A stretch of DNA of 64,000 bases from Niabella yanshanensis (lineage in GTDB: Bacteria > Bacteroidota > Bacteroidia > Chitinophagales > Chitinophagaceae): contig NZ_CP139960.1 in assembly GCF_034424215.1 (NCBI RefSeq), positions 2,542,001 through 2,606,000 on the forward strand, given 5' to 3'. The notes beneath the pieces are model-generated. The model had not been told where the DNA came from and did not search any database. It saw only the letters and a list, made by a program, of their open reading frames with translations. Below, one piece after another: positions 39,021 to 44,002 of the stretch. The translations under genes and the position numbers were made by a program. The first letter of the stretch is position 1, and every line of letters begins with the position of its first letter.

Positions 39021-39491
39021 TTACTGGTCTAATACTTTGACACTTCTCGAAAAGCTTTCTTCCAGCGATATAAAGGTTTCCGTTCGCTCAATACCTTTTA
39101 TTTTTTGTAACTTTTCGTGTAATACATCTCTTAACTCCGAGATATCTTTACATACGATTTCAGCAAACATGCTGTAGTTACCCGTGGTATAATTCAAACG
39201 CACAATTTCACTGATCTTATGAAGTTCCTTGGCGACCGAATCATATAAGGAGCTCTCTCTCAGGTAAATACCGATAAAAGCAATTACATCGTAACCCAAA
39301 AGCTTCAGGTCTGGATTTAAGCGTGTGCCCTTTACCACCCCATCTTTTTGCAGCTTTTTAATACGTACGTGGATGGTGCCTCCCGACACAAATAACTTCT
39401 TACCCAGGTCAGCATAAGAGATCTCCGCATCGTCCATCATATGCTCAATGATCTGCAAATCGAGCTTATCTAGATTTAATTTAGAATTCAT
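39021..39491 (-). CDS. Lrp/AsnC family transcriptional regulator
   Basis: 156 residues: an N-terminal helix-turn-helix (LDKLDLQIIEHMMDDAEISYADLGKKLFVSGGTIHVRIKKLQKDG) and a C-terminal RAM/AsnC ligand-binding domain (DVIAFIGIYLRESSLYDSVAKEL, VRLNYTTGNYSMFAEIVC). Such proteins sense amino acids and regulate their metabolism. It converges on ligA with a seven-base gap. Its target genes and effector are unknown; the divergent neighbour on its 5' side is the unusual tRNA gene, 160 bases away. Confidence 0.92.
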   Translation of the reverse strand: MNSKLNLDKLDLQIIEHMMDDAEISYADLGKKLFVSGGTIHVRIKKLQKDGVVKGTRLNPDLKLLGYDVIAFIGIYLRESSLYDSVAKELHKISEIVRLNYTTGNYSMFAEIVCKDISELRDVLHEKLQKIKGIERTETFISLEESFSRSVKVLDQ

Positions 39492-39577: not shown

Positions 39578-39610
39578 TTTGGAACGAAGACCCATTTATC
39601 TTTATTTTTG
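39578..39610 (+). promoter_or_regulatory. Promoter of the unusual tRNA gene
   Basis: -33 TTTG (39578-39581), a 21-base spacer and -7 TAttTTTG (39603-39610). The spacing equals that of the HU promoter. Transcription should begin near 39616, giving a leader of about 35 bases that contains a small hairpin (GCCT/AGGC) before the mature 5' end. Confidence 0.75.
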
Positions 39611-39650
39611 TTCTAACAACGCCTGATAATAAGGCAAAGTTCTTCAAAAT

Positions 39651-39811
39651 TGTGGGGTGATGAAATTTTTGGCAGACATGCCCTCTTGTCTCGAGGGTGA
39701 GGATCACGGAATAAACACAACATAGAGCCGACCGTCAGGCCGACCAGGATTGACCACTAACTTTGTGTTGCGGCTAACCGCCTCGTGGAGGTTCGACCCC
39801 TCCCCCTACAG
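39651..39811 (+). tRNA. tRNA-shaped gene with GUC (Asp-type) anticodon and an 89-nt variable region
   Basis: Acceptor: TGTGGGG (39651-39657) pairs with CCCTACA (39804-39810), one G-U. D arm: ATG/CAT (39660-39662, 39677-39679) around a loop with GG at 39671-39672; its GGCAGAC resembles tRNA-Leu. Anticodon arm: CCCTC/GAGGG (39681-39685, 39693-39697) with the seven-base loop TTGTCTC, anticodon GTC at 39688-39690. T arm: GGAGG/CCTCC around TTCGACC (39787-39803). Position 73 is G; CCA is not encoded. Between the anticodon and T stems lie 89 bases (39698-39786), foldable as GAGG/CCTC at the base, AACACAA/TTGTGTT (39714-39720, 39763-39769) and either CGG/CCG or the hairpin GCGG-CTAA-CCGC. GUC, C38 and G73 agree with Asp identity, the D arm does not. 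It has its own promoter and terminator. A decayed tRNA is possible but every stem is intact. Confidence 0.75.
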
Positions 39812-39818
39812 CATATTA

Positions 39819-39846
39819 AACCTTCGCCGCTGGCGGAGGTTTTTTT
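39819..39846 (+). terminator. Intrinsic terminator of the unusual tRNA gene
   Basis: AACCTTCGCC pairs with GGCGGAGGTT (10 bp, one wobble) around a GCT loop, followed by six Ts, beginning eight bases after the discriminator base. Confidence 0.9.
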
Positions 39847-42182: not shown

Positions 42183-42425
42183 GTGAGTAAATATCGCAGA
42201 GATATTATTTTGGTCATTAAAGATGATGCCATCCAACCCCGTTCGATCGATACCCAGGTGGAATGTCTGAACTATGTAATTGCATGCGTAGAAAACAGGG
42301 AGGGCTTTTGCCGGGCCCATGAATTGGTAAACAGGAACCGGATTACCTCCAGTAAAAGAAAAATATTATCCGCAGTAAAAAATGAGCGTTTAAAACCGTT
42401 CCGGTTTTTGCTGAATAAAAATTAA
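42183..42425 (+). CDS. Small hypothetical protein
   Basis: 80 residues, basic, no signal peptide. The likely start is GTG (product MSKYRRDIILVIKDDAIQPR). The segment QVECLNYVIACVENREGFCRAHELVNRNRITSSKRKILSAVKNERLKPFRF is plausible protein, with three cysteines. It ends exactly at a strong terminator shared with rng, which supports it being a real transcript end. No family is recognised. Confidence 0.5.
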   Translation: MSKYRRDIILVIKDDAIQPRSIDTQVECLNYVIACVENREGFCRAHELVNRNRITSSKRKILSAVKNERLKPFRFLLNKN

Positions 42426-42451
42426 AAAGCTCCGGACTTCCGGAGCTTTTT
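42424..42451. terminator. Bidirectional terminator between the small ORF and rng
   Basis: A perfect 12-bp stem, AAAAAGCTCCGG with CCGGAGCTTTTT, around an ACTT loop. It serves both convergent genes. Confidence 0.9.
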
Positions 42452-42454
42452 AAT

Positions 42455-44002
42455 TTAAAACTTAATTTCTTCTTCGTTCGAATCGAAGAAGTGGTATTCG
42501 GTCAGCTGGTAAGCTGTATCTTTTTCTATTCTGGTTTTCTGCCCAAATTTTTTATTCCACTTAGACAACTTACTGCTCCACCATAAACCCTTTGTTAAAT
42601 ATCCATATACAATAGGATGTACGATGAGTTTGAGATTTTTATGCTTGTGTGTGATAAGATAGTTGAGGTTCTTTTCGATCTCGTCCTCCAATACCAGTGT
42701 TGAGGTTATTTTGCCGCTACCATTACAGCTGGGACATACCTCCTGGGTGTTGATGTTTACTTCGGGACGCATGCGCTGCCGGGTAATCTGCATCAATCCA
42801 AACTTGGAGATGGGTAATACCGAATGCTTTGCCCTGTCGGCCTGCATTACTTCCTCCATTGTATCAAAAAGCTTCTTCTTATTTTCGGCAAGTTTCATAT
42901 CGATGAAATCCACTACGATGATTCCTCCGATATCTCTCAACCTTAATTGCCGGGCAATTTCAGCAGCAGCCTCCAGGTTGGTTTCCAGTGCATTTTGTTC
43001 CTGGTTATTCCCCACGTTTTTATAGCCGCTGTTTACATCAACAACGTGTAGGGCTTCAGTATGCTCTATAATGAGATAAGCGCCACTGTTTAAAGTAACC
43101 GTTTTCCCAAAAGATCCTTTTACCTGCTTGGTAATACCTAAAATATCAAAAACATTACCCTGCGCCTGGTTCACGATCTCCGCTTTCTCGGGCGCAATTT
43201 TCTGGATATAGTTTTTGGTTTCGTTGTAGATATTCTTGTCGTTGGTAACAATACGGTTATAATCTGCGCTTAAAAGATCTCTTAAGATACTGTTAGTCTT
43301 ATTCTGCTCGCTGAAAATCTTGGTAGGCGCTACTGCTCCCCTCAGATTTTGCTGAACCGTGTTCCAGATATTGACCAGGTTCCCGAGGTCTTCATAGAGT
43401 TCTGCTGTATTTTTTCCCTCCGCTGCAGTTCTTACAATTACACCAAAGTTCTTTGGCTTAACGGCTTCAATTATCTTCTGCAGTCTTTTCCTTTCTTCCG
43501 AAGAGTGAATTTTCTTAGATACTGCTACAATATTATTGAAGGGCGTGATTACAACAAATCTGCCCGGTAAAGAAAGTTCACAGCTAAGCCGGGGGCCTTT
43601 GGCCGCAATGGGCTCTTTCAATATCTGAACCAGCACATGGGGTTTACCACCCAGCACCTCGCTGATCTTACCGGTTTTTACAATTTCCGGTTCAACGCTG
43701 AATTTTGAAAAGTCTACAGGGTTGGCATCTGTGGCTGCCATAGCCATATTAGTAAACTTTAATAACGATTTTGCATAAGGGCTTAGGTCGGTATAATGCA
43801 AAAATGCGTCTTTTTCAAAGCCTACATCTATAAAAGCGGCATTAAGCCCGGGCATCAGCCTCTTCACTTTACCCAGGTATAAATCACCCACGGCAAAGCG
43901 GCCATCGCTTTTTTCGCTATGCAACTCCACCAGCTTCTTATCTTCTAACAAAGCAATTTCAACACCAGTTGGAGCGGCATTAATTACAATTTCTTTATTC
44001 AT
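42455..44002 (-). CDS. rng: Ribonuclease E/G family endoribonuclease
   Basis: Processes rRNA precursors and degrades mRNA. 515 residues, RNase G-like length without the long E-type scaffold. The N-terminal S1 domain (GDLYLGKVKRLMPGLNAAFIDVGFEKDAFLHYTDL) is followed by the RNase H-like catalytic domain; LHVVDVNSG and IIVVDFIDM hold the two metal-binding Asp residues, and the zinc-link cysteines are in CPSCNGSG. It is followed by a bidirectional terminator. The bS22-like gene lies 195 bases upstream on the same strand. Confidence 0.95.
   Translation of the reverse strand: MNKEIVINAAPTGVEIALLEDKKLVELHSEKSDGRFAVGDLYLGKVKRLMPGLNAAFIDVGFEKDAFLHYTDLSPYAKSLLKFTNMAMAATDANPVDFSKFSVEPEIVKTGKISEVLGGKPHVLVQILKEPIAAKGPRLSCELSLPGRFVVITPFNNIVAVSKKIHSSEERKRLQKIIEAVKPKNFGVIVRTAAEGKNTAELYEDLGNLVNIWNTVQQNLRGAVAPTKIFSEQNKTNSILRDLLSADYNRIVTNDKNIYNETKNYIQKIAPEKAEIVNQAQGNVFDILGITKQVKGSFGKTVTLNSGAYLIIEHTEALHVVDVNSGYKNVGNNQEQNALETNLEAAAEIARQLRLRDIGGIIVVDFIDMKLAENKKKLFDTMEEVMQADRAKHSVLPISKFGLMQITRQRMRPEVNINTQEVCPSCNGSGKITSTLVLEDEIEKNLNYLITHKHKNLKLIVHPIVYGYLTKGLWWSSKLSKWNKKFGQKTRIEKDTAYQLTEYHFFDSNEEEIKF

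Follow-up and report, generated by a model that had tools for sequence, protein, structure and literature searches.

The locus examined here, in the genome of Niabella yanshanensis, raises the question of what use a bacterium might have for a gene that is shaped like a tRNA, bears the anticodon GUC and holds 89 nt between its anticodon and T stems. The original prediction, made from the window (the whole 64,000-nucleotide stretch of DNA that was analyzed), was of a tRNA-like gene with identity elements for aspartate, a leucine-like D arm and a giant structured variable region, and both a reading of the sequence and the covariation of its stems bear this description out. The observation is confirmed to be real and is larger than was reported, the element being one member of an RNA family of 192 distinct sequences, mostly from Bacteroidia (all family counts are of distinct sequences, and two deviants, L274 and L275, are left out of the set). 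We consider it probable, at roughly two chances in three, that this RNA has been taken out of translation and would serve as a carrier for RNA-dependent asparagine formation.

The RNA occupies positions 39651–39812 of the forward strand, from T1 to C74, and scores 170.3 bits with our covariance model, R1. The 5′ strand of its acceptor stem (helix 1; TGTGGGG, 39651–39657) pairs with CCCTACA at 39804–39810, giving U1-A72 and G2-C71, and the 3′ side of the acceptor (39804–39812) is completed by G73 at 39811 and C74 at 39812, the final CA not being encoded here. The Leu-like D arm (39660–39679) has a 3-bp stem (39660–39662/39677–39679) and a 14-nt loop containing G18G19 and an A at 20a, and the anticodon arm (39681–39697) has a stem at 39681–39685/39693–39697 and the loop TTGTCTC, with GUC at 39688–39690 and C38 at 39692. 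The 89-nt variable region (39698–39786), delimited by folding and covariation, contains helices at 39699–39702/39781–39784 and 39707–39708/39779–39780 (2 bp) and a distal helix at 39718–39724/39764–39770, as well as GGATTGACCAC at 39747–39757, the local form of a conserved loop motif, GGGTTGACCAC. It is followed by the T arm (GGAGG-TTCGACC-CCTCC, 39787–39803; loop TTCGACC). All of these features lie on the forward strand, and the window copy is accordingly a complete 7/5 cloverleaf with a 5-bp anticodon stem, itself having U33 and U37.

The reality of the element is settled by the covariation of its stems. In the alignment of the 29 homologues from which R1 was built, 99.7% of the 754 pair cells hold standard pairs and 11 of the 26 pairs change on both sides; none of 500 shuffled controls reached any of five measures of covariation, and controls in which the alignment was slid were only 50–64% paired. 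Helices 1 and 6 are 100% paired with compensatory changes in these homologues, as befits a cloverleaf with a 7/5 acceptor/T branch. The variable arm itself covaries, its distal 7-bp helix having double changes at five pairs among the 28 long-armed members. The median length of the family's variable regions is 78 nt (range 38–131 nt), and 106 of the 192 members carry the GGGTTGACCAC loop motif with at most two substitutions; among long-armed members, the motif is nearly invariant in the distal variable arm across families. Folding energy was weak as proof of an RNA (z −1.5 for the element and −2.24 for 39616–39846), and covariation was used instead. With covarying stems and a conserved family, the original view that this is a specialised RNA and that a pseudogene is unlikely is upheld.

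Other interpretations of the sequence were considered and dropped. A tmRNA is ruled out, as ARAGORN calls none, an anticodon arm is present and there is no tag frame. A coding interpretation (ATG AAA TTT TTG GCA GAC ...) fails because the length of the D loop varies by single bases between members, and therefore no reading frame is kept. A pseudoknot between the anticodon GUC and the GAC in GGGTTGACCAC would comprise only 3 bp, and short members that lack the motif keep GUC.

As had been suspected from the outset, the RNA is missed by tRNA finding: ARAGORN called no tRNA or tmRNA in the 64-kb window and none in any of the 192 family members. A search with the 4227 models of Rfam matched no family to the element, the only hits being sub-threshold and either due to chance or located in the terminator region, so that no other RNA family was found to fit it better. 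No Rfam tRNA hit was obtained at the element even at E 10, and a scan with RF00005, in which 150 of 315 candidates were scored, gave no match there. In the open-licence literature searched we recognized no description of this RNA, and an earlier description is possible. For annotators, the result is an RNA family that has no entry in Rfam 15 and that ARAGORN does not see.

Homologues were readily found in relatives, contrary to one outcome that would have undone the prediction: a nucleotide search of 59 genomes, including the host's own, gave matches in 39 (E ≤ 0.01). Several of these have tandem copies, and one (G017) matches through the terminator only. Members scored at least 89 bits with R1 among the matches listed and weaker hits at most 60 bits; six of the latter were checked, of which five were tRNA-Leu and the sixth, in the host's own genome, was a tRNA of uncertain anticodon. 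Two hits fell between these groups and were kept apart from the family, at 68 bits (L274:3838-3914, G233) and 63 bits (L275:3937-4044, G322). In one of these deviants the anticodon and T loops are both altered, yet it lies beside an AsnC-like gene (31% identity); the other has AUC in its loop, and its variable region is short. They are perhaps decaying or repurposed copies. The host genome also holds two adjacent partial RF00005 matches of 34.9 and 24.3 bits (L304, G000:C1:4590495-4590614), where ARAGORN called no tRNA.

Members (best E < 1e-20) were present in 91 of 148 genomes of an order sample and in 35 of 197 of a class sample, with five positives common to both, and 31 of 296 genomes of a phylum sample were positive (35 matches minus four weak ones). 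Two of the phylum-sample positives belong to a family outside class Bacteroidia and have three copies each, in tandem arrays (G607:C84:4975-5406 and G615:C68:4172-4624), which suggests that the RNA was transferred or arose earlier. Named genomes, scanned with a pattern, yielded at least 120 stretches; 80 of these became loci, all rescoring at 92 bits or more with R1, although these are not independent because some represent the same genome taken twice; two copies were present in 23 of those 80 loci and three in two, and the longest array listed has five copies (G165). Among the matches listed are Chitinophaga (with a record of C. pinensis, L138), Terrimonas, Flavihumibacter, Mucilaginibacter, Pedobacter, Cyclobacterium, Algoriphagus, Echinicola, Fulvivirga, Neolewinella and one Ignavibacteriales bin. 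As regards a mobile origin, no phage or plasmid match was found at distant search settings.

The prediction that the gene has its own transcription signals also holds. Upstream, at 39578–39610 of the forward strand, a pair found by eye, TTTG-N21-TATTTTTG, is what we take to be a promoter-like sequence of the Bacteroidetes type; it was not among the calls of a generic sigma-70 scan. TAnnTTTG occurs within 150 nt upstream of 117 of the 189 members with flanks (mean of 22 in mononucleotide shuffles). Stable-RNA leaders contain boxA-like sequences, and our reading of the leader identified one here (GTTCTTC, 39639–39645, forward strand); GTTCTT is found within 60 nt upstream of 62 of the 189 members (mean of 3.3 in mononucleotide shuffles). 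Downstream on the same strand lies an intrinsic terminator-like element (39818–39846), formed of an 11-bp hairpin (39818–39842) and a T run, and such a hairpin follows 58 of the 189 members under a strict exact-arm rule. Elsewhere in the window, a strong, symmetric hairpin flanked on each side by a T run (42404–42469), probably a bidirectional terminator, draws sub-threshold Rfam leader hits.

What the RNA might be charged with can be judged from its identity elements. G34, U35, C36, C38, G73, C74 and the pair G2-C71 are invariant (192/192 each), and a review lists five strong Asp determinants, G73, G34, U35, C36 and C38, pair 2-71 being minor (PMC9976931). The constant positions of the anticodon loop are those determinants, the variable ones being only 32, 33 and 37. 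According to the same review, amidation of Asp-tRNA is conferred by U1-A72 and prevented by G1-C72 and U20a (PMC9976931); the family has U1-A72 in 191 of 192 members and an A at 20a, after GGC or GGT, in all 192, with 20a numbered by our own alignment. These features, with gatB present in the same genome in 41 of 41 cases, are those expected of a GatCAB substrate. Counting against charging with aspartate are the missing tRNA-Asp elements G1-C72, given as crucial for bacterial Asp identity in PMC9976931 and absent from the family, and G10, present in 30 of 192 members. The A73 of tRNA-Leu is replaced by G73 in every member. The host has an ordinary tRNA-Asp, with G1 and a GGTTAG D loop and so without the amidation signature, and its tRNA-Asn has U1 and the D-loop sequence GGTTAG, in which our numbering of 20a places U20a.

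A tRNA that decodes requires U33 and, in most cases, a purine at position 37. Across the 192 members, position 33 is U in 151, C in 24 and G in 17, so that U33 is lost in 41, and position 37 is U in 172, C in 12, G in 8 and never A. With U33 variable and A absent from position 37 throughout the family, decoding looks abandoned. From its sequence, the RNA reads as a hybrid of identities, with Asp identity that would allow charging and amidation competence that would suit GatCAB, and as not kept for decoding. The original prediction contained neither the near-constant U1-A72 and the missing U20a, which both point to GatCAB, nor the family-wide loss of U33 and of A37, the divergent AsnC-type neighbor and the co-occurrence with gatB.

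That co-occurrence was examined in a panel of 80 genomes, 41 with the RNA (out of 121 RNA-positive genomes) and 39 without, in which the presence of the amidotransferase was scored by gatB. Among these genomes, which were taken by hand and non-randomly from the order and class samples ahead of any look at gatB, and in which absence of the RNA rests on Infernal's stricter filters and draft assemblies and can be false (as in G143), gatB was present in 41 of 41 with the RNA vs 16 of 39 without. AsnRS was found in 79 of the 80 and GlnRS in 53. In the 53 GlnRS-positive genomes, where GatCAB has no obvious standard job because AsnRS and GlnRS are both present, gatB accompanied the RNA in 29 of 29 and occurred in 2 of 24 without it (Fisher 6e-13); the exact product within families for the same link is 8.6e-7. 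The 27 GlnRS-negative genomes are uninformative because gatB is nearly universal there (12 of 12 with the RNA and 14 of 15 without); in the RNA-negative group, GlnRS is missing from 15 of 39 genomes, and in 14 of those the presence of gatB has an evident different cause. The host itself (G000) has AsnRS, GlnRS and gatB.

The association also holds between near relatives. Within genera, G087 has the RNA and gatB and the congeneric G171 has neither, as is the case for G345 and G194, a pair in which GlnRS differs; within a family, G253 and G282 have both and G216 has neither, and in family f18 the split is 8 of 8 vs 0 of 7. There are two exceptions among the GlnRS-positive genomes. In G143, the contig breaks off beside AsnC after 52 nt of the RNA, and reassigning this genome as RNA-positive, a step taken after the result was seen, gives 30 of 30 vs 1 of 23. 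In G190, a single protein comprises GatB (residues 16–475) and a full bacterial AspRS (518–1105), both above cut-off. The gene for this 1106-aa fusion (L277:3804-7124) adjoins a GatA-like gene, which scores 433 bits against a cut-off of 481, and a search for the RNA beside it gave 8.2 bits at best. G190, a member of Bacteroidia, encodes AsnRS and GlnRS as well, together with a further synthetase frame of 596 aa that is taken to be AspRS. NCBIfam includes an AspRS-GatC fusion; that of G190 is GatB-AspRS.

The RNA is likewise linked to a regulator. On the reverse strand of the window, at 39021–39491 and separated from the RNA by 159 bp, lies a divergent gene of the AsnC/Lrp family, containing domains PF01037 and PF13404, whose best match among all NCBIfam models is AsnC (159 bits, and 56 to Lrp), although this score is below the 227-bit cut-off of the AsnC equivalog NF008384. 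Three other RNA-linked regulators scored 150–188 bits to AsnC vs 53–66 to Lrp, also below 227. An AsnC/Lrp-family gene lies upstream and divergent at 66 of 83 loci, the next commonest neighbor being found at 23, and a profile search found a divergent upstream AsnC at 115 of the 157 loci whose upstream flank reached 500 nt or more (another 8 had too little sequence for this count). It was not counted at the other 42, at two of which (L201 and L213) the frame overlaps the RNA; loci without AsnC include records of Cyclobacterium, Algoriphagus, Echinicola, Fulvivirga and Saprospiraceae. In the 80-genome panel, an AsnC orthologue of at least 200 bits was present in 41 of 41 genomes with the RNA vs 7 of 39 without (Fisher 7e-16), with a line that was drawn after seeing the gap from 207.7 to 188.6 and a profile made from RNA-linked copies. 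A search for a hidden RNA beside AsnC in RNA-negative genomes gave 8.1 bits at best in six, the contig-cut RNA of G143 aside.

In E. coli and other enterobacteria, asnC and asnA are divergent neighbors. AsnC activates asnA in E. coli (PMC4144887), and the AsnC link of the RNA points to asparagine supply. No AsnC homologue was found beside asnA or asnB in 12 stretches, of which four asnA and five asnB came from RNA-negative genomes and three asnA from RNA-positive ones.

The distribution of asparagine synthetases is less clear-cut. AsnA was present in 3 of 41 genomes with the RNA and 4 of 39 without, and canonical AsnB (NF006949) in 0 of 41 and 5 of 39 (p 0.024), all five also being without gatB; taken together, AsnA or canonical AsnB was not significantly rarer with the RNA (3 of 41 vs 7 of 39, p 0.19). 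Broad AsnB (TIGR01536) was above cut-off in 70 of the 80 genomes, a presence that is uninformative because AsnB-like frames of 600–650 aa abound, many of which presumably belong to polysaccharide clusters. Neither AsnA nor an AsnB-like enzyme above that cut-off was found in 6 of the 41 RNA-positive genomes (G000, G031, G036, G167, G169 and G180, with "below cut-off" for G000 and G167 deduced from the tally) and 4 of the 39 RNA-negative ones; the host is among the six, having no AsnA, no NF006949 AsnB and TIGR01536 matches that appear from the tally to be below cut-off. The RNA may be one source of asparagine among others, because 35 of the 41 carriers also encode AsnA or have an AsnB-like enzyme that passes the TIGR01536 cut-off.

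The RNA family, its two identity sets and its linkage to gatB and AsnC are established by sequence and phyletic pattern, and charging by AspRS with amidation by GatCAB would be the simplest account of the two identity sets and the gatB pattern. The host AspRS would read G34, U35, C36, C38 and G73 and charge the RNA with aspartate, which GatCAB, recognizing U1-A72 and the lack of U20a, would amidate to asparagine. The giant variable arm and degraded anticodon loop would keep the RNA off the ribosome. This separation is to be expected, since an RNA with a GUC anticodon that carried Asn would insert it at aspartate codons; such corruption of proteins would account for the giant arm, the missing U33 and the presence of a pyrimidine at position 37. 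The asparagine may then be released free, for use by AsnRS, or passed on, its use off the ribosome as free asparagine being the most likely, and the AsnC-type regulator, usually divergent, would tune expression to asparagine supply. The original suggestion of a "specialised or regulatory" tRNA is narrowed to a likely role in off-ribosome asparagine metabolism.

Several rival explanations share part of this evidence. Aminoacyl-tRNAs that do not translate serve transferases elsewhere, as the staphylococcal non-decoding tRNA-Gly does in peptidoglycan synthesis, and it is possible, if unlikely, that AspRS and GatCAB do make Asn-RNA here and that the RNA is the aminoacyl donor for a dedicated transferase, with a cell envelope, lipid or peptide product. 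The same identity and gatB data would fit, and the GGGTTGACCAC loop, present in 106 of 192 members, could bind a partner; however, no transferase gene stands out near the RNA at the 83 loci, where the AsnC-type gene is the commonest neighbor, and a regulator of that type fits asparagine supply better. Quite unlikely, in our estimation, is a regulatory decoy or sensor, whose charging or binding to AspRS or GatCAB would serve solely to signal Asp/Asn status, with no product made in quantity. The gene's own transcription signals, AsnC neighbor and structured variable arm would suit such a device, but the complete acceptor end (G73, C74), covarying stems and tandem arrays of up to five listed copies (G165) suggest turnover as a substrate, and a dependence on gatB in GlnRS-positive genomes (29 of 29 vs 2 of 24) would be unexpected if the RNA did no more than sense AspRS.

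The complete cloverleaf, the GUC anticodon and the U33 of the window copy might be taken as those of an extra decoding tRNA for Asp, or of an Asn-charged tRNA that deliberately misreads GAC and GAU; we regard this as very improbable given the loss of U33 in 41 of 192 members, the absence of A at position 37, the ordinary tRNA-Asp in the genome and a variable region of 38–131 nt, far outside class II. It would be just as surprising if the link to gatB were indirect, with GatCAB and a non-discriminating AspRS acting on ordinary tRNA-Asn and the RNA having an unrelated role. Genera with AsnRS, GlnRS and GatCAB are known (67 in the table and 68 in the text of PMC4206432), 18 of them, Bacteroidetes included, being without Asn synthetase, and a non-discriminating AspRS has been demonstrated in Bdellovibrio (PMC4206432); the host tRNA-Asn, moreover, has U1. 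Such an arrangement leaves unexplained the close match of gatB to the RNA and the near-constant U1-A72 on an Asp-type RNA, and the D loop of the host tRNA-Asn (GGTTAG) holds U20a by our numbering.

If asparagine formation on the RNA is indeed its role, this would explain why GatCAB is retained in many Bacteroidia that have AsnRS and GlnRS, and how some Bacteroidia may grow without a recognisable asparagine synthetase. An amino acid would be made via an aminoacyl-RNA with the code kept safe, the RNA being accepted by AspRS and not by the ribosome. Whether this amounts to a retired tRNA turned biosynthetic cofactor for an amino acid, with GatCAB kept for it in GlnRS-positive Bacteroidia and its gene in the divergent place of asnA beside asnC, we regard as an even bet.

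Comparison with known RNAs places the family between several classes. It shares G34, U35, C36, C38, G73 and G2-C71 with bacterial tRNA-Asp and differs from it in having U1-A72 instead of G1-C72, no U20a, a class II D arm, a variable region of 38–131 nt and no conservation of U33 or position 37. The shape and sequence of the D arm are like those of class II tRNA-Leu, from which the RNA is set apart by G73 in place of A73, its GUC anticodon and a much longer variable arm. The staphylococcal non-decoding tRNA-Gly and the pseudo-tRNA of Bacillus cereus, reportedly a tRNA-like RNA used outside translation, are similar in lying outside translation, but they involve another amino acid and have neither the hybrid Asp/amidation identity nor the linkage to GatCAB and AsnC. 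Allo-tRNAs and selC* tRNAs have 8/4 or 9/3 acceptor branches, unlike the 7/5 branch of this RNA. They resemble it as unusual bacterial tRNAs with long variable arms (PMC7609411). The nearest parallel is the route of Deinococcus, Thermus and Bdellovibrio described in PMC4206432, in which Asp is placed on an RNA and amidated by GatCAB via U1-A72 with AsnRS and GlnRS present, steps that are here predicted. That route uses tRNA-Asn, a reader of Asn codons, as its carrier and requires a non-discriminating AspRS (PMC4206432); the present RNA, in contrast, has the Asp anticodon set, should be accepted by a discriminating AspRS and looks unable to decode.
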